A DNA stretch of 64,000 nt from Nitrospira sp. (GTDB lineage: Bacteria; Nitrospirota; Nitrospiria; Nitrospirales; Nitrospiraceae), in contig CP054184.1 in the NCBI GenBank assembly GCA_015709715.1, positions 248,001 to 312,000 on the forward strand, read 5' to 3'. A program made the position numbers and the translations under genes. The notes below the pieces were generated by a model. It was given only the letters and a program-made list of their open reading frames with translations. It ran no database searches and had not been told where the DNA came from. Of this stretch, positions 26,744 to 64,000 are shown piece after piece. Within the stretch, counting starts at the first letter, position 1, and each line of letters opens with the position of its first letter.

Positions 26744-27236
26744 AACATCATCCCTCTCGATTCGCGTTGCCGTCCGCCGATCACATGGCAGGAGGCAGCG
26801 CAGGAGGGATAATCAAGATGCATGCCATCGGCAGGAGGTCGCGTAGTGCTGGAAATGGCGGACTTCCGGTGAACTCAGCGGGAACCGCCGCGCCTGACTC
26901 GGTAAGAATTTCCTAGCGGCTGGCAACCGCTGCAGTCTAGGCGGATTCGATCACAGGCTTCCGCAAGGCGAAGGGTTCGAGGGGCCTTCCGCACCATCGG
27001 GCGGCGCCATCGCACAAGGAAACACCTAGGACGATGACCGCCAAATTACTGACAGGTTCGATTTTCAACCCCCACAGCCACGTCCCCGATGAGTAGCCTT
27101 GTCTCACGACCATGAGCGAGTGTCGGCAGACAGCCGGCTTAAGGCTACCTGCCCATGAACCGATATACAGTCTGCCGAACAGGCAACTGGATCGTTGTCG
27201 GGCCCCTCACCATCGACGACCAGGCAGTTCGCACCT
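26744..27236. other. 493-nt divergent intergenic region
   Basis: This gap separates the glycan operon (minus) from the HD-GYP gene (plus). No convincing gene was found. It contains short inverted repeats (for example AGCGG with CCGCT near 26914-26930) and a weak sigma-28 candidate at 27140-27166. No -24/-12 site with correct spacing was found for the glycan operon, so its promoter is unidentified. A c-di-GMP-I riboswitch was looked for and not supported. Confidence 0.5.
27140..27166 (+). promoter_or_regulatory. Weak candidate sigma-28 promoter for the HD-GYP gene
   Basis: TAAGGCTA-N11-ACCGATAT resembles the fliC and flgM promoters but differs at the end of the -10. It is about 70 nt before the ATG at 27237. 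Confidence 0.33.
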
Positions 27237-28487
27237 ATGGCCTCCACCAAACAAATCCCGATCGACCAGGTCAAGCTCGGCATGTTTGTCGTGGGCATGG
27301 ACCAACCTTGGTATCGCACCCCTTTTCTGTTCCACAAACGGCTGATTTCAGACCCGAACGACATCGTCCAGATGAAGCGGCATGGGATCAAGGAGGTCAC
27401 GATCGACACCGAACGCGGCACCGATGTCGGCCAAGACCCAGCTCCCACGCAGGAAGCGGCTCCCGAAACGCCGTCGGAGGCACCACCGGACGAGAAGAGT
27501 CCCGGCCCTTCGAACCGAGAGGACAGCCCGGCACAGCATGTGGCTGCCGCGAAAGCTGCCTATCGTGAAGCGACAGCGGCTATGGAACGGGTGTTCAGCG
27601 ACTTGGAGGCAGGCACCTCACCGAAACTGGTGACCTTGAAAAACATCGTCGGCGGGTTGTTGAACCGCATCCTCACCCATCCCGATTCTATGATGATCCA
27701 ACTCTGTTTGGAGCAGATGAGGCGATTCGACCGTACCTTGGCATCCCATGGAATGGAAGTCTGCATCCTGGCACTCATCGTCGCCGTGGAGAACGGCTGC
27801 GTAGAAACTGATCGTGAGACACTCGGCGTCGGGGCGCTGCTCCATGATGTCGGGTATATCCGACTGCCCCGTAATCTGTATCGAAAATCATCGCGCCTGA
27901 CCGAGCAGGAAAAATCCCTCATGCACCAGCATCCCCAGTTGGCGGCAACCGTCCTGGCTCAGGGGGATCAATTTCCCGAGTCCGTGAGCAAAATTATTGC
28001 CCAGCACCATGAACATGCCGACGGCAGCGGCTACCCGAACGCGTTGAAAAACGACGCCCTCTCTTCCCTCTCGCAGATCGTCGGATTGGTCGACACCTAC
28101 GGCGGCATGATCACCCCGCGCCACGGCAGACCGGCGCTGCTCCCTCACGATGCCATCAGACAATTGTTCATCCTTGGCGAGAAGGGCCGATTCGACAAGG
28201 CCCTCGTGGAGGTGGCCATCAAAGCGTTGGGCGTCTACCCGATCGGCAGTCTGATTAAACTCAATACCAACGAGTATGCCGTGGTGGTGGGCCTCAATCG
28301 CGAACATCGCCTCAAACCACGGATTCGGATCATCAAGAGCCCGGAAGGAACCCTGTATAATGCTCCACTCGAAATCGATCTGACCGACACCGACTCTACC
28401 GGACCGACTCGATCCATTCAGCGCGCCCTGGACCCGAATCAGGAACATATCGATGTTGCCGCCTATGTCGAGACGAAGGGACAGTAA
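27237..28487 (+). CDS. HD-GYP domain protein, probable c-di-GMP phosphodiesterase
   Basis: The 416-aa protein starts with a DUF3391-like domain (IPIDQVKLGMFVVGMDQPW, VTIDTERG), then a Pro/Glu-rich linker, and an HD-GYP domain with LLHDVGYIRLP and QHHEHADGSGYP. HD-GYP enzymes hydrolyse c-di-GMP. The metal ligands HD and HH are present, but the conserved Lys after HD(x)G is Tyr (HDVGY), which may change activity. An in-frame TTG at 27195 is possible; ATG 27237 fits the domain start better. It is followed after 9 nt by a hybrid kinase gene and may act with the PilZ protein to control motility. Confidence 0.88.
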   Translation: MASTKQIPIDQVKLGMFVVGMDQPWYRTPFLFHKRLISDPNDIVQMKRHGIKEVTIDTERGTDVGQDPAPTQEAAPETPSEAPPDEKSPGPSNREDSPAQHVAAAKAAYREATAAMERVFSDLEAGTSPKLVTLKNIVGGLLNRILTHPDSMMIQLCLEQMRRFDRTLASHGMEVCILALIVAVENGCVETDRETLGVGALLHDVGYIRLPRNLYRKSSRLTEQEKSLMHQHPQLAATVLAQGDQFPESVSKIIAQHHEHADGSGYPNALKNDALSSLSQIVGLVDTYGGMITPRHGRPALLPHDAIRQLFILGEKGRFDKALVEVAIKALGVYPIGSLIKLNTNEYAVVVGLNREHRLKPRIRIIKSPEGTLYNAPLEIDLTDTDSTGPTRSIQRALDPNQEHIDVAAYVETKGQ

Positions 28488-28496
28488 CCCGATCCC

Positions 28497-31292
28497 ATGA
28501 CCCCGACACCTGAGCCACGACCCAAACCAGCCCAAACGCCTGCAGGATTCCCTTGGGCTTCCGAACTGACAGCACTCTTGTGGGACGCACTGCCGCTCGG
28601 GATCTGTCTCCTCTCTTCCGACCAGACGGTGGTCCTCGCCAACCGCACTGCCGCCCGTCTTTTCCAGCGCCACCCTGAGGAATGCAGCGGACAATCGCTG
28701 GCGGCATTGACCGGCCATTCGCTGGACCTGAGCGAAACCATTGCCTCAGCAGGAATCTGGTCTCTCTCGCAAGGATCCGGTGATGACACCGATCGCACAC
28801 CTGTCGAATGGCAACAGCTCCGCCTTTCCGGGCTGACCGGGATTACCGCGCTCTTGACCCTCCGCGACGTGTCTCGCCAAACCGAATTGGAACAGGAGCG
28901 AAACCGATTGGCGGCCGTGGCGGAAGAAAGCCCCTATCCGATCGTCGAACTGGATCAAGACGGCGCGCTGCTCTATGCGAATCCGTCGATGATCGAGCTC
29001 CTCTTCCGATTCGGCTACGACGATGAGGGGAAGCCGGACATCCTCCCGGGCAATCTGCGGTCGCTCCTTGCTGCTTGCGTACACTCCGCGAGCGCACTGC
29101 CGCCGCAGCAGGTGGTGCGCGGCGACGCCTGCTATAGCTGGACGTTCTGCCCCGTCCCCGGCCATCACCTCGTGCGTGCCTACGCCATCGACCTCAGCGC
29201 GGTCCATGGGACCCATCGCGCGCTGAACGAGACGGCTGACCGTCTCCGTGAGAGTAACCTTCAGCTCCACGCGGCGCTCGAGCAAGCGCAAGCCGCGACG
29301 CGCGCCAAAGCGACGTTCCTGGCGACGATCACCCACGAATTACGGACCCCCATGAACGGGGTGATCGGCATGGCAAGTCTTCTCCTCGACACTACCCTGA
29401 CGGATGAACAACGGTCGTTCGTTCAGACCATTCAACAATGCGGGGAGACCCAGCTCTGCCTCATCAACGACGTGCTCGAATGCAGCAAGATTGAAGCCGG
29501 TAAGCTGGAGCTTGAAAATCTGGACTTCCAGCTTCGAACGATCGTGGAAGACATTCTGCTCCAATTCGCCGAACGTGCGGAGAGCAAGGGACTGGAGTTG
29601 ACCGGCTTGGTGCAGGCGCCGGTGCCGAATGCACTACGGGGAGACCCCGCCCGCCTTCGTCAAGTCCTGACCAATTTCGTGGGCAATGCCATCAAATTCA
29701 CCGACCGCGGGGAAATCACGCTGCAAGCCTGCCTGGAAACAGAGTCCCCTACCACCGTCACGATTAAGTTCGAGGTCACCGACTCCGGCATCGGGATCAG
29801 CGAGGACGTCCAGGCGCGACTCTTCCAACCGTTCACACAGGCGGATAGCTCCACCACCAGGAAATACGGTGGCACCGGGCTCGGCCTCTCCATCTCCAAA
29901 CAGCTAGTCGAACTCATGGGCGGGACCGTGGGACTCCGAAGTCGGCCCGACAAGGGAACTACCTTTTGGTGCACGGCAACTTTTCAGAAACAGCCGGAGG
30001 CTCAACCTGCCATTCTCCCATCGCCGGAACTGAGCGGACGTCGGGTCCTCATCGTCGATGACAACCCAGCGAGCCTCACTGTCCTGCATCACTTGCTTTC
30101 CGGCTGGGGCATGCACGACGGTCAGGCGCGGAACGGTGAAGAAGCGCTCGGAATGGTTTCCCAGGCCGCGGCGCAGGGCGCTCCGTACGATCTGGCCATC
30201 GTCGACCTCATGATGCCGGAATTGAACGGCCTTCAACTCGCTCAAGCTCTAAAGGCAAGGCCTGAGGGGCAATCGATGCGACTGGTCATCCTGACCTCTC
30301 TCACGAGACCCAGCCATGCGGAGCAGGTTCGACGGGCGAACTGCGACGCCCATCTTGCCAAACCGGTTCGTCATGACCCCTTGCAGAATTGCCTGCGACG
30401 AGTATTGGGAACCATGCCGAGTCCTGAGCCGGGTCTGAACCGGACGACAGCTGCCCCCGTATCTCCTTCTCAGGCCCCCACCCTCGCAACACCGCCTGTT
30501 TCCACGACACGGCCGCGCGTGCTGGTTGCGGAAGACAATGCCGTCAACCAGAAACTGGCTGTACGGATGCTGGAGCGGCTTGGTTATCAGCCTGACGTGG
30601 TCTCCAACGGCCAGGAGGCGCTGACGGCATTGGATAGAGGCGGTTATACCGCCGTGATCATGGATTGCCAAATGCCGGTCATGGACGGATATGAGGCGAC
30701 GAGGCGGATTCGAAAAAGAGAACAGGAAGGTGGCATTCCCGGGGCGTCGGCGCGGGTACCCATCATCGCATTGACCGCCAATGCCATGCAGGGTGACGCG
30801 GAACGCTGCAAGGCGGCCGGTATGGACGACTACCTGACGAAACCCGTGAAAACCCAAGACCTGGGACGAGTGTTGCAGCGCTGGATTCCCAGTTCCTCCC
30901 CTGAGCCCCACGCCTCCACGGCCTCTCCCCCATCTCCGAGCAAGCTCACTACGGGAATTTTCGAGGCTGAAAAGATGCTAGAGAATATCGGCGGAGATCT
31001 CGACCTGTTCCATCAACTGATCCGCCTATTTTTGGACCGCTATCGCATGATGCTGCAGGATATCGCGGCGGCGATCGAAAGCAATGACAGCACCACACTC
31101 GAACGGGCGGCCCACAGCATGAAAGGCACGGCTGGAAATCTCTGTGCCCCGACCGTCGTCTCTGTGGCCGGTCAATTGGAAGGACAGGCCCGTCAAGGCT
31201 CATTGGATCAGGCCCCTGCGCTATTTCCAAAACTCGAAGGCGCCGTGCAGGAGCTGATCGTCGTATTGCAGGCGCAGATCCCCCGCACCTAG
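28497..31292 (+). CDS. Soluble BarA-like hybrid histidine kinase (PAS, HisKA, HATPase, two REC, HPt)
   Basis: The 931-aa protein has one or two PAS-like regions (residues 20-270), HisKA with HELRTPMNGVIG (His near 280), HATPase_c with N-box NFVGNAIKF and GTGLGLSI, a receiver near 514-630 (VDLMMPE), a second near 675-800 (MDCQMPVMDG, LTKPV) and a C-terminal HPt domain (AHSMKGTAGNL, His near 871). There is no transmembrane segment, so it senses a cytosolic signal. It is translated from the HD-GYP message and lies tail to tail with fliW-csrA; in other bacteria BarA acts on the Csr system, and a similar link is possible but only inferred here. Confidence 0.92.
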   Translation: MTPTPEPRPKPAQTPAGFPWASELTALLWDALPLGICLLSSDQTVVLANRTAARLFQRHPEECSGQSLAALTGHSLDLSETIASAGIWSLSQGSGDDTDRTPVEWQQLRLSGLTGITALLTLRDVSRQTELEQERNRLAAVAEESPYPIVELDQDGALLYANPSMIELLFRFGYDDEGKPDILPGNLRSLLAACVHSASALPPQQVVRGDACYSWTFCPVPGHHLVRAYAIDLSAVHGTHRALNETADRLRESNLQLHAALEQAQAATRAKATFLATITHELRTPMNGVIGMASLLLDTTLTDEQRSFVQTIQQCGETQLCLINDVLECSKIEAGKLELENLDFQLRTIVEDILLQFAERAESKGLELTGLVQAPVPNALRGDPARLRQVLTNFVGNAIKFTDRGEITLQACLETESPTTVTIKFEVTDSGIGISEDVQARLFQPFTQADSSTTRKYGGTGLGLSISKQLVELMGGTVGLRSRPDKGTTFWCTATFQKQPEAQPAILPSPELSGRRVLIVDDNPASLTVLHHLLSGWGMHDGQARNGEEALGMVSQAAAQGAPYDLAIVDLMMPELNGLQLAQALKARPEGQSMRLVILTSLTRPSHAEQVRRANCDAHLAKPVRHDPLQNCLRRVLGTMPSPEPGLNRTTAAPVSPSQAPTLATPPVSTTRPRVLVAEDNAVNQKLAVRMLERLGYQPDVVSNGQEALTALDRGGYTAVIMDCQMPVMDGYEATRRIRKREQEGGIPGASARVPIIALTANAMQGDAERCKAAGMDDYLTKPVKTQDLGRVLQRWIPSSSPEPHASTASPPSPSKLTTGIFEAEKMLENIGGDLDLFHQLIRLFLDRYRMMLQDIAAAIESNDSTTLERAAHSMKGTAGNLCAPTVVSVAGQLEGQARQGSLDQAPALFPKLEGAVQELIVVLQAQIPRT

Positions 31293-56098: not shown

Positions 56099-56535
56099 TC
56101 CCGTTCTCCCGGTCTCAGGGGATTTCTTCGCCAGGCCCGTTCATCGAGCAAGGCCTGGTCCTGACGTTCCTGCCGACGCCTCTGCTCCTGCTGCGCCCGG
56201 CTTACCAACAGATCCAATTTCTTTCGATCCCGCATGGCCTCGAGCACCGCGTCACGCTTGGTTGCCCACTGGCTCTGCAGCGAGGTCTGCCGCTCTTCCA
56301 TGCGCTTTCTGGTTTCAAGGGCCTGGTTCATGGCGTCGAGGGGGGCGAACAATTCCTCCGCCGTCCCGCCCCGGCGCGCCTGTTCCAGGTACGTGTCTGC
56401 ATCGCACCCGGCCCGCGCCTCCAAGCGCGCGATCCGATCGTTCCACTCCTGCAACTCACGCGCAGCCTCCGCGAGTTCCATCCTGGTCGCGTCCTCCCGT
56501 TGCAGCGCATGGGCGCGAAGGACCGTCAGGTTCAT
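56095..56535 (-). CDS. fliJ: Flagellar export chaperone FliJ
   Basis: FliJ (146 aa) is a coiled-coil protein that sits in the FliI ring. The sequence is a long helix pair rich in Arg, Glu and Gln. It overlaps fliI by ATGA and precedes the MotE-like gene. FliJ has little sequence conservation; position and coil pattern support the call. Confidence 0.85.
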   Translation of the reverse strand: MNLTVLRAHALQREDATRMELAEAARELQEWNDRIARLEARAGCDADTYLEQARRGGTAEELFAPLDAMNQALETRKRMEERQTSLQSQWATKRDAVLEAMRDRKKLDLLVSRAQQEQRRRQERQDQALLDERAWRRNPLRPGERE

Positions 56536-57839
56536 TTAATCTTTCCCGCCAGGGCCATCAACTCATCCAGCGAACGAGAGAATCCGACCGGCTGCTGAAT
56601 TTCCTGCCGCAGGAACGCCGTGATGTCGTCGTGCGCCGACACCGCCTTATCCAACTCTTTGCTGGTGCCGGGCTTATAGGCCCCGAGGGTGATCAAGTCT
56701 TCCGATCGACGATACAGAGCCGTTCGTTCCAAGACCAAACGCGCCGCCGCATAGTGCGCCGGCGTCACGATATCCCGCATCACTCGGCTGGTACTGTGCA
56801 TGATGTCGATGGCCGGAAAATGGTTACGTGCGGCGAGCTCTCGAGACAGCACAATATGGCCGTCCAGGATAGACCGGACGGCATCAGCGACGGGATCGTT
56901 GAGATCGTCGCCGTCGACCAGGACGGTGTAGAGGCCGGTGATGCTGCCGCCGCTCTGAGCCGTGCCGACCCGTTCCAGCAGCTTCGGCAGCACCGCGAAC
57001 ACCGAGGGCGTATATCCTTTCGTGGTCGGAGGTTCGCCGATCGCCAGGCCTACCTCACGCTGGCTGTACGCCAATCGAGACAAGGAATCCATCATGAGCA
57101 GGACCTGGTTCCCCCGATCGCGAAAATACTCCGCGATAGCCGTCGCCACCAGCGCGCCGCGGATGCGGACCATCGGGGGTTGATCGGAGGTTGCTACGAT
57201 GACCACCGAACGCGCGCGGGCTTCCGGGGTAAGGTCACGCTCCAAGAACTCCTTCACCTCGCGCCCCCGTTCGCCCACCAAGGCAATGACCCTGACATCC
57301 GCCTGGGTGTAACGGCTGATCATGCCCAACAGGACACTCTTACCCACGCCGGATCCCGCGAACACGCCGATCTTCTGCCCCTGCCCGCAGGTCAGCAGCG
57401 CGTTGATCGCCCTGATTCCCAGATCGATCGGTTCCGTGATCCTCGCGCGATGGAGCGGATTCAGCGGGGTGGCGTGGAGCGGCACCCGCGACTCGGCACG
57501 CACCGGCGGCAAGCCGTCGAGGGGATGGCCGAGTCCATCGAGGATCCGGCCCAGCATGTCCGGCCCGACCGGAACGGAGGCGACGTGCCCCTTCATCACC
57601 ACGCGGCTGCCCGGCCCGATGCCCTGCATTTCTCCCAGCGGCATCAACAGGACGCGATCTTCGCGAAAGCCCACCACCTCCGCCATGACCGTCCCCTGCC
57701 CGCCCTCACGGGTGATCTCACAGACTTCTCCCACGGACGTGAAGGGGCCGGATGCTTCGATGACGATGCCGACCGCCTGGGCGACGCGCCCGGTGACGGA
57801 CAGCGGTTCGACCTGCTCCAGACGCTCGCTAAGCTTCAT
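56532..57839 (-). CDS. fliI: Flagellar export ATPase FliI
   Basis: FliI (435 aa) is the export ATPase, related to the F1 beta subunit. Walker A is GVFAGSGVGKSVLLG, followed by LVGERGREVKEFLE and LLMMDSLSRLAYSQREVGLAIGEPP. ATG 57839 follows GAGAG; the longer frame lies in the FliH gene. It overlaps the REC-FliH gene by 11 nt. Confidence 0.96.
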   Translation of the reverse strand: MKLSERLEQVEPLSVTGRVAQAVGIVIEASGPFTSVGEVCEITREGGQGTVMAEVVGFREDRVLLMPLGEMQGIGPGSRVVMKGHVASVPVGPDMLGRILDGLGHPLDGLPPVRAESRVPLHATPLNPLHRARITEPIDLGIRAINALLTCGQGQKIGVFAGSGVGKSVLLGMISRYTQADVRVIALVGERGREVKEFLERDLTPEARARSVVIVATSDQPPMVRIRGALVATAIAEYFRDRGNQVLLMMDSLSRLAYSQREVGLAIGEPPTTKGYTPSVFAVLPKLLERVGTAQSGGSITGLYTVLVDGDDLNDPVADAVRSILDGHIVLSRELAARNHFPAIDIMHSTSRVMRDIVTPAHYAAARLVLERTALYRRSEDLITLGAYKPGTSKELDKAVSAHDDITAFLRQEIQQPVGFSRSLDELMALAGKIK

Positions 57840-58878
57840 CGGTCTCTCGCTTTCGTAGGGCTTCTCCCAACCGCAACAACTGGCTGTCCAGCGTCGCATC
57901 GATCAAGAGGCTCGAGGCCTGCACGAGACAGCCACCAGGGCTGATGCCGGGATCCGTTTCAAACTTCAGGGTCAGCGAGCCATGGGGCGTTTGGCTCAAT
58001 GCCGAGCGCGCCCCCTCCAAGGCCGGCAAGTCCGACGGATGAATACGAATGCGGACCAGGCCGCTTTCGTGCAAGTGACTGAGCGCGCTGCGCACCTGGG
58101 TCACGATCGCGTCGCGTTTCTCCGCCACCAGATCACGCAGTACCTTCTGCGCGATCATGAACGCCAGGGAGGCGACTTCCTCTTCCACCGTTTCATGCAG
58201 ACCACGCCAGGCCTCTTCGAGTTTGGCTCCCAACGAGGCCACCAGCACCTGTTCCTTCTGCCGCACAGCTTGTACCCGTTCAAGGGCGCGCTGCTCGCCT
58301 TCGGCGACACCCCGCTCGTACTCCGTCACCTTGTCCTTGTCAGGCGGCTTGCTGCCGGGAGTAAAATCGGCCAAGGGCACCGTCCGCAGGCGAATGTTCC
58401 CCGAACGAATCAGCGTGTTCTTGAGCACGGTGTTCTCCTGCCGCAAACGATAGAGTTCCAGCAGTCTGGCGACGGTCAGGTTCACCAAATCCAGTTGGAA
58501 AGGTTTGGTCAGGAAATCCGCCGCGCCGGACTTCATCGCCCGTACGGCCAACTCGATATTGCCGTGGCCGGTCATTACGATGCCGAGCAAGCGACTGTCG
58601 ATTTCGAGGGCGCGCTCCAGAAGGGCAATGCCGTCGGTGCCGGGCAGTTGCACGTCGACCATCAACACCGCGACCGGATGGACGTGCAGGTGGGCCAAGG
58701 CCTCTTCGGCAGATCCGGCGGTGATGACCACCTGTCCCGCCGCACGGAGCAATTCACTCAGCAGTTCGCAGATGGGCGGCTCATCATCGACCACCAGGAT
58801 CGCGCGCGGCGCCAATTCCTTGTCGGGTGCGGCGGCTGGCGTCCTGGGTGAGGCCTGACGCGCGGCAGCGGCTCCCAT
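57829..58878 (-). CDS. Response-regulator/FliH fusion
   Basis: The 349-aa protein has an N-terminal receiver domain (residues 26-150) with the complete phosphorylation site: Asp31-Asp32, acceptor Asp75 in VDVQLPG, Thr103 in MTGHG and Lys125 in TKPF. A helical linker (LLELYRLRQENTVLKN) leads to a FliH/YscL-type C-terminus (residues 200-349), with EEAWRGLHETVEEEVASLAFMIAQKVL. FliH binds FliI and the C-ring protein FliN. The fusion suggests phosphorylation-dependent control of export, but the kinase is unknown. It starts right after fliG. Confidence 0.9.
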   Translation of the reverse strand: MGAAAARQASPRTPAAAPDKELAPRAILVVDDEPPICELLSELLRAAGQVVITAGSAEEALAHLHVHPVAVLMVDVQLPGTDGIALLERALEIDSRLLGIVMTGHGNIELAVRAMKSGAADFLTKPFQLDLVNLTVARLLELYRLRQENTVLKNTLIRSGNIRLRTVPLADFTPGSKPPDKDKVTEYERGVAEGEQRALERVQAVRQKEQVLVASLGAKLEEAWRGLHETVEEEVASLAFMIAQKVLRDLVAEKRDAIVTQVRSALSHLHESGLVRIRIHPSDLPALEGARSALSQTPHGSLTLKFETDPGISPGGCLVQASSLLIDATLDSQLLRLGEALRKRETDEA

Positions 58879-59874
58879 TTAGACCAATGCCTCGCCTGAC
58901 CCGCCGCCGACGACGATGCGGCCTTCTTCTTCCAGTTTGCGGCAGACCTTCAGGATGTTCTGTTGCGCCTTCTCGACATCCGACACCTTGACGGGTCCGC
59001 GTGTGTCCATGTCTTCCTTGAGCATTTCCGCCGCCCGACTCGACATGTTCTTGAGGAACTTCTCCTTCACCTCCGGCGTGGCGCCACGGAGGGCGATGGG
59101 AAGGTCTTCCTTGCTGATCTCCTTCATCAACTCCTGCATCGAGCGGGAATCCAAATCGATCAGGTCGTCGAAGACGAACATGAGGGCCCGGATGCTATCC
59201 GCCAGCGCCTGGTCCCGTTCCGTGAGCTTGGCCATGATGGCGCCCTCGGTGTTCTTGTCGATGCGCGTCAGGATGTCCGCCATCAGTTCCGTGCCGCCGA
59301 CCGACATGCTGGACACGCCCATCGACGCCGACAGAATTTCCTGCAGGCTGTCGCTCAGTTCAGCCAGCACGTCCGGCTGCACCTCTTGCATGGTCGCGAG
59401 CCGCAGCGATACATCGGCATGCAGATGCACCGGCAGCAGCGCCAACACGGCGCTGGCCTGTTCGGCCTCCATCTGACCCAAACAGACCGCAATCGTTTGG
59501 GGATGTTCGACCTTCAGAATCTGAGAGACCGTCCTGGCGTCCACCCACTTCAGCGCATCGATGCCCGGATAGGTCTTCGTGTTGAGAGATTCCATGATGC
59601 GCGCGGCTTTTTCCGGACCTAAGGCCTTTTTGAGGATCGTTTCCATGAACTCCTTTCCCTCAAACTGGACCTCGCCGGAAGAGCTCGCCTGTTCGAATTC
59701 CGCGATCACGCTCTCTTCTTCCTGTTTCGTGATATTGGCCGTTTCTTTCATGAAGGTCCCGAGCTTCCGAATGTCTTTCGGATCCAGCGCCTTCATGACC
59801 GCGGCCGCGGCCTCTTCTCCGATCGCCCGCAGCAGGATCGCGGCCTTCTGTGCCCCGCTCAACTGTTTATTCAT
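58879..59874 (-). CDS. fliG: Flagellar switch protein FliG
   Basis: FliG (331 aa) is the torque-generating C-ring subunit. The N domain (KAAILLRAIGEEAAAAVMKAL), the middle domain with EHPQTIAVCLGQ, and the C domain with MFVFDDLIDLDSRSMQELMKEI and the charged torque helix are present. It ends one base before the FliH fusion gene begins. Confidence 0.96.
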   Translation of the reverse strand: MNKQLSGAQKAAILLRAIGEEAAAAVMKALDPKDIRKLGTFMKETANITKQEEESVIAEFEQASSSGEVQFEGKEFMETILKKALGPEKAARIMESLNTKTYPGIDALKWVDARTVSQILKVEHPQTIAVCLGQMEAEQASAVLALLPVHLHADVSLRLATMQEVQPDVLAELSDSLQEILSASMGVSSMSVGGTELMADILTRIDKNTEGAIMAKLTERDQALADSIRALMFVFDDLIDLDSRSMQELMKEISKEDLPIALRGATPEVKEKFLKNMSSRAAEMLKEDMDTRGPVKVSDVEKAQQNILKVCRKLEEEGRIVVGGGSGEALV

Positions 59875-62906: not shown

Positions 62907-64000
62907 TTATGCCTTCTCTGTCGCGACCGGATACCCCATCTCGCGATACTCGCGTAACTTGTTCCGCAGCGTCCTGATGCTGATGCCCAATTCCTTCGCC
63001 GCATGGGTTCGGTTGTCTTTGACGCGAGCCAGCGTCTTGAAAATCAGCTCTCGCTCCATCTCCCACAAGGATCCATGGGTGGAGGGTATCGCCGCGGCAG
63101 GCAGAGGCGGCTCCCCTTCCCGCACCGGAACCGCCCCATCCCCAAGCATCAGGTGATCAACATCGATCGCTCCACCGCCAGCCACCAACACGGCGCGTTC
63201 GATGACGTTCTCCAATTCCCGAACGTTCCCCTTCCAAGTTCGACTCTGCAGGTCCGCGACGGCGCGGTCGGTCAAGGTCGGTGAGGTAATCCCATTCCGC
63301 TGCGCCGAAGCCCGAAGGAAATGTCTTGCCAGAAGCGGAATATCGCCCGACCGCTCACGCAACGGCGGGACGCTGACCGGAAACACGTTCAGGCGATAGA
63401 ACAAGTCCTCGCGAAAACGGCCTTGCGTCACTTCGTGATAGAGCGACCGATTCGTGGTCGCAATCACTCGAATGTTGACCGGCACCGGCTCGCGGCCGCC
63501 CACGCGATCCACCTCACGCTCCTGCAAAACTCGTAACAGCTTCGCCTGCAAGCCCAGATTCATTTCGCTGATTTCGTCGAGGAAGAGCGTGCCGGTATGG
63601 GCCATTTCAAACTTCCCCAGTTTCTTGTTCAGCGCGCCGGTGAAGGCGCCGCGCTCATGGCCGAACAACTCGCTCTCCAGCAAGCTGTCCGGCAAGGCGG
63701 CGCAATTGAGCGCCACGAACGGACGATGGGCGCGAGGACTGCGGGCGTGGATGTAGCGAGCCAGCAGTTCCTTTCCTGTCCCACTTTCACCGCTGATCAA
63801 CACGGTGGCTTGACTGGACGCCACCCCTTCCAACGTCGTCAACAGCCGGATCATCCCGGGGTCCTGGGTCAAGATCGCACGAGCCTCGGTGGTCGCCGGC
63901 GCATCCTGTTCGTCCGTGGCCGTCGTGGCCTGCAGATTGAGGATCACCCGCTCGAGCAGATCGGTCGAAAACGGCTTCAGGATATAATCGTTCGCCCCGC
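62907..64000 (-). CDS. Sigma-54-dependent response regulator, FlrC/FleR type (N-terminus beyond window)
   Basis: The frame stays open to the window end. The visible 5' part ends a receiver domain (GANDYILKPFSTDLLERV), so the first codons lie outside; GTG 63947 is an internal codon. Next comes the AAA+ domain with Walker A GESGTGKE, the sigma-54-contact motif GAFTGA (ERGAFTGALNKK) and Walker B TLFLDEI. The C-terminus is a Fis-type HTH (THAAKELGISIRTLRNKLREY). It is a FlrC/FleR-like activator that would drive the -24/-12 promoters found before flgB, flgF and fliL. Its kinase (FlrB-like) is probably outside the window. Confidence 0.93.
   Translation of the reverse strand, partial: GANDYILKPFSTDLLERVILNLQATTATDEQDAPATTEARAILTQDPGMIRLLTTLEGVASSQATVLISGESGTGKELLARYIHARSPRAHRPFVALNCAALPDSLLESELFGHERGAFTGALNKKLGKFEMAHTGTLFLDEISEMNLGLQAKLLRVLQEREVDRVGGREPVPVNIRVIATTNRSLYHEVTQGRFREDLFYRLNVFPVSVPPLRERSGDIPLLARHFLRASAQRNGITSPTLTDRAVADLQSRTWKGNVRELENVIERAVLVAGGGAIDVDHLMLGDGAVPVREGEPPLPAAAIPSTHGSLWEMERELIFKTLARVKDNRTHAAKELGISIRTLRNKLREYREMGYPVATEKA

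Follow-up and report, generated by a model that had tools for sequence, protein, structure and literature searches.

The 64,000-nucleotide window from Nitrospira sp. that was analysed here lies within a single 4.16 Mb contig and carries flagellar genes, among them one in which a response regulator receiver domain is fused to FliH (Table 1). Its open reading frame starts with ATG and encodes 349 residues with no internal stop. Pfam detects a receiver (Response_reg, PF00072) at residues 27-130 with an E-value of 1.9e-23, well over the cut-off, and FliH (PF02108) at residues 214-335 with an E-value of 5.6e-20 (72 bits against a cut-off of 24.1). An earlier note, made from the sequence of this DNA alone, had described the two domains as lying in one frame, between fliG and fliI, with Asp31, Asp32, Asp75, Thr103 and Lys125 as the receiver site; the uninterrupted frame with both Pfam domains and the Pfam identities of the neighbouring genes bear this out, and all five residues are found at the positions given. 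The same note had joined the receiver to the C-terminus of FliH; if this is taken to place the receiver after FliH, it has to be reversed, since in the Pfam order the receiver comes first. The fliG TAA directly abuts the fliH ATG, and fliI and then fliJ follow downstream, which places the fusion gene in a normal fliF-G-H-I-J operon. The fliI gene overlaps the end of fliH if an internal ATG (MKLSERL) is taken as its start, the fliI frame being open from 57899. Only one copy of FliH is present in the genome, so the fusion must perform the job of FliH. Genes resembling flhF and flhG also lie within the window.

Table 1. Features of the receiver-FliH locus (positions in the window; residues of the fusion protein)
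Feature	Position	Strand	Remarks and basis
Receiver-FliH fusion gene	57829..58878	-	349 aa; sole FliH of the genome
Receiver domain, residues 26-142	58453..58803	-	Pfam PF00072, Foldseek, invariant D75/T103/K125
Long alpha5 and NtrC-type linker helix, residues 129-158, with RLLELYRLRQENTVLKN	58405..58494	-	AlphaFold helix; shared with regulator B
Flexible tether, residues 159-185, with retained FliH N-terminal segment NIRLRTVPLADF	58324..58404	-	pLDDT; alignment
FliH stalk helix and C-terminal FliI-binding domain, residues 186-349	57832..58323	-	PF02108, AlphaFold, 5b0o
fliG	58879..59874	-	Immediately upstream of fliH; Pfam FliG_N/M/C
fliI, export ATPase	56532..57839	-	Pfam ATP-synt_ab and T3SS_ATPase_C
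NtrC-type flagellar regulator A (FleR/FlbD-like)	62907..64000	-	Extends past the window end; its coupled PAS histidine kinase lies just outside

The fusion protein consists of a receiver, an NtrC-type linker helix and a complete FliH, in this order, with the receiver N-terminal to the whole of FliH, including the N-terminal segment of FliH itself. The acidic pair D31/D32, the phospho-acceptor D75, T103 and K125 make up the receiver site and are all present in the window protein. In a Foldseek search the receiver fold best matches the receivers of NtrX, Spo0F, NtrC1 and DctD (TM-score on the target of ∼0.9 for NtrX, Spo0F and NtrC1), and the solved FliH structure 5b0o is matched by sequence search (E 8.3e-5). 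The AlphaFold model, for which 58 window and locus sequences were aligned, has a mean pLDDT of 82.7 and is confident for the receiver, the helix at residues 129-158 and the FliH C-terminal domain; the stalk is modelled as a helix of 68 residues (186-253). Tether residues 162-179 have a pLDDT below 50 and are predicted to be disordered, and the pTM of 0.42 leaves the relative placement of the two well-folded domains undefined. The flexibility of the tether makes rigid transmission of a signal from the receiver to FliI unlikely in the model. In alignment, this disordered part of the tether corresponds to the N-terminal segment that plain FliH proteins of Nitrospirota conserve, showing that the receiver has been placed ahead of an essentially whole FliH. 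No tryptophan occurs in residues 155-185, and the Salmonella-type Trp7/Trp10 FliN/FlhA-docking motif is not found there; plain Nitrospirota FliH proteins have a different N-terminal segment, which is kept in the fusion, and the Trp7/Trp10 motif is not a defining FliH feature in Nitrospirota. The AAA+ sigma-54 domain and the HTH are absent from the fusion by Pfam and by comparison with the NtrC-type regulator B of the same cluster, leaving the receiver and linker only.

The fusion is present in 27 of the 28 other genomes of the same genus that were searched, with 69-75% identity, the exception (G016) being a fragmented genome that shows the neighbouring regulator only. Altogether, sequences confirm it in 50 FliH genes, which come from six Nitrospiraceae genera (g1, g2, g3, g6, g21 and g24). 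The earlier note had called for conservation of the join in relatives to be checked, and an assembly or frame artefact joining two genes is ruled out, its probability being negligible, by the presence of the same join in all 50 of these FliH genes, which come from different genomes, several of which consist of a single contig. The fusion is thus not due to chance; it is real and old. Separate FliH and receiver genes in close relatives, which the note had named as the finding that would count against it, do not occur in the genus itself or in the five further genera, but three sister genera (g8, g20 and g22) have a plain FliH of ∼205 aa without a receiver.

Within the 50 fused proteins, D75, T103, K125, P126 and G83 are invariant, D31 is replaced (by Glu) in a single protein, and D32 is kept in 45, with Ala or Gly in the remaining five (L036, L073, L075, L077 and L078). 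Mean identity between the genus of the window and the other genera is just 48% for the receiver and 40% for the C-terminal part of FliH, and at this level of receiver divergence the invariance of the phospho-acceptor site is informative. Pairs from within the genus give a dN/dS of 0.088 for the receiver, 0.058 for the linker (the lowest in the protein) and 0.086 for FliH; dS is near saturation, and these values are read only for the likeness of the two halves, which by this measure are under similarly strong purifying selection. It is conceivable that the receiver is purely structural, a dimerisation or C-ring binding module (possibly binding FliM/FliN, as CheY does) whose phosphorylation is unused. 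The most conserved stretch of the protein is the long NtrC-type linker helix, a type of helix that pairs receivers in NtrC1 and DctD, and the loss of one metal-binding acidic residue in five species also fits such a role; the invariance of Asp75, Thr103 and Lys125 in all 50 proteins speaks against it, and we regard it as improbable. For the five species lacking D32 themselves, the loss of the second acidic residue means that phosphorylation is perhaps weak or unused, hinting at receivers that may be phosphorylation-independent or altered.

Outside Nitrospiraceae, FliH is plain wherever its sequence was read in the rest of Nitrospirota, and FliH frame lengths in a 295-genome sample are consistent with this. 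When 395 genomes of Thermodesulfobacteriota (the phylum of G336) and 259 of Pseudomonadota (the phylum of G331) were sampled, FliH was present in 238 and 166 of them, respectively. FliH frames of unusual length, up to 551 aa, in other members of the family, Thermodesulfobacteriota and Pseudomonadota were considered as further fusions and rejected, no receiver being found outside the fusion lineage: among the matches listed, a receiver is absent from each of the 29 long frames that were read from the two phylum samples and one further genome, and the long frames in G187 and G250 are accounted for by open DNA that runs into fliG. A degenerate scan across 84,980 species gave, among its best 80 matches, full-length matches in Nitrospira-type genomes only (one record is titled Nitrosospira), and no FliH fused to a receiver in other loci. 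Rare receiver-FliH fusions elsewhere are possible. In another family of the class, a plain FliH of 309 aa (L096, 2513-3442) carries ∼10 tandem GYAKGFAEGE-like repeats in its stalk region.

The receiver probably came from within the flagellar gene cluster itself. When 62 receivers are placed in a tree, those of the fusion proteins come together as a single group (94/85), nested in a group that also includes the receivers of regulator B. The gene for B, an NtrC-type protein with an intact receiver site of its own, lies ∼10 kb upstream of fliH. Within one genome, the fused receiver is 36-46% identical to that of B and 24-34% identical to that of regulator A, and the linker helix motif RLRQEN is common to the fused receiver and B. 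The position of the fused receivers as one clade beside the receiver of B suggests that the receiver and linker helix were probably copied once from the NtrC/FleQ-type regulator of the flagellar cluster itself. A CheY-like origin was also considered and is not supported, the receiver grouping with the NtrC/FleQ-type lineage in the tree. In a tree of fliG and fliI, the genera with plain FliH form the base of the family along with G277, which sits on a long and loosely placed branch; this fits one gain of the fusion, with or without one loss. The regulator B receivers of g21 (L152 and L155) are closer to the fused receivers than are other B receivers (94/95), and their linker helix is degraded; gene conversion between B and fliH in this genus is possible.

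Upstream of fliF, regulator B is followed by a TPR protein, then by a PAS histidine kinase and A. We take this order to resemble fleQ-fleS-fleR of Pseudomonas, except that the kinase is separated from B by the large TPR protein. Past the right end of the window (positions 312325-319656 of genome G000; L088, 6326-13657), the PAS histidine kinase (431 aa; genome positions 312325-313620) adjoins regulator A, and this stretch also encodes a TPR protein of 723 aa along with two more NtrC-type regulators, of 494 and 472 aa. The FleS-like PAS kinase is found in the same cluster in all 15 flagellated genomes of the family that were searched, and the system formed by it and regulator A is a candidate source of phosphate for the fused receiver. 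At the kinase-contact positions, the fused receivers match neither A nor B closely, and the fixed contact residues of A (S35, M36, A39, E42 and R46 in the numbering of the fusion) are mostly not shared by them. Elsewhere in the window, a hybrid histidine kinase with two receivers and a Hpt domain (28497-31292) lies near the flagellar genes, directly after an HD-domain protein with DUF3391 (27195-28487), and a CheA dimerisation domain (∼912-1115) occurs at the left end, within a frame of 638 aa on the minus strand. Phosphorylation of the receiver by CheA would link chemotaxis to export, and CheA-type genes are present in this genome (one of them in the window, near 912) and in the relatives searched; the grouping of the receiver with NtrC/FleQ-type receivers and its NtrC-type linker helix make this very unlikely.

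The best explanation for the fusion, in which we have about as much confidence as doubt, is a kinase-controlled switch acting on the docking or dimerisation of the FliH2-FliI complex. Salmonella FliH anchors FliI as a dimer and binds FliN and FlhA through its extreme N-terminus (PMC9114704). If FliH of Nitrospira is likewise a dimeric stalk that docks FliI on the basal body via its N-terminus, each dimer would carry two receivers beside the docking segment. A histidine kinase that phosphorylates Asp75 would then alter the pairing of the receivers, or mask or expose the docking segment, and the resulting shift in recruitment or release of FliH2-FliI would turn subunit export up or down. Given the conserved phospho-acceptor and the NtrC-type linker helix, phosphorylation-dependent receiver pairing or exposure of the docking segment is the simplest model; phosphorylation, the identity of the kinase and the effect on export are what we infer here. 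The three genera of Nitrospiraceae that manage with a plain FliH, the five fused receivers lacking D32 and the poor match of the kinase-contact positions to A and B count against a kinase switch. Direct control of flagellar export by a kinase is also what the earlier note had proposed, and the conserved in-frame fusion with its intact site supports that reading in part. A wider proposal, that the export ATPase complex has come under direct two-component control through a stator receiver copied from the regulator of the cluster, with one signal serving both expression and export, is held more tentatively and with some doubt.

Alternatively, the receiver might be a reporter or docking site for the FleS-like kinase, or a phosphate sink, coupling completion of the export machine to sigma-54 flagellar transcription, so that the output would be gene expression and not the rate of export. 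The fusion shares its cluster with the kinase and both NtrC-type regulators, the fused receiver groups with one of these regulators (B), and the activity of FlgS, FlrB and FleS depends on the complex of MS ring, rotor and export proteins, a requirement described for FleS/FlrB of Vibrio and Pseudomonas (PMC7064773). However, the kinase and both regulators are equally present in the relatives with plain FliH, the model systems sense without any receiver on FliH, and the kinase-contact residues are unlike those of the presumed partner A. We consider this coupling to transcription unlikely, while giving it some weight beside the kinase-controlled switch.

Each part of the fusion has known counterparts. 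With the FliH/SctL stator (Salmonella FliH, PDB 5b0o) it shares the C-terminal FliI-binding domain, the long stalk helix, the position between fliG and fliI and the single copy; the fusion adds an N-terminal receiver and linker helix, and it lacks Trp7/Trp10 of the Salmonella protein. The receiver and linker helix are of the same type as in the NtrC/DctD/NtrX and FleQ/FleR/FlbD regulators, the nearest being the NtrC-type receivers of the cluster itself, but those regulators continue into AAA+ and DNA-binding domains, whereas the output domain of the fusion is a component of the export machine. Control of FliI and other export ATPases by c-di-GMP (Trampari et al. 2015, PMC4591828) likewise provides a direct signal input to the export ATPase complex, with a second messenger acting on FliI there and a putative phosphorylation input on FliH here. 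The FlgSR/FlrBC/FleSR checkpoint (PMC7064773) ties a two-component system to assembly of the export apparatus, with a gene set similar to that found here, but there the kinase takes its input from the export apparatus, while here the export apparatus itself contains a receiver. The earlier note had not recognised the mechanism as a described one, and no receiver-FliH fusion was found in the literature searched, which covered few subscription journals. Sequence comparison thus identifies the fusion as real, conserved and lineage-specific, known in its parts and new in their combination.

In the usual view, FliH is a stator that also regulates FliI negatively. With an intact receiver on its only copy, found family-wide, FliH would offer a direct phosphorylation input into flagellar export, for which a regulatory role of the receiver is plausible. 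The fusion also shows how a receiver can pass from a transcription factor to a machine whose genes lie in the cluster of that factor. Among nitrite oxidisers, Nitrospira are of major importance, and the control of their motility has, to our knowledge, been little studied; the intact receiver on their sole FliH suggests that a kinase could directly control the building of the flagellum.
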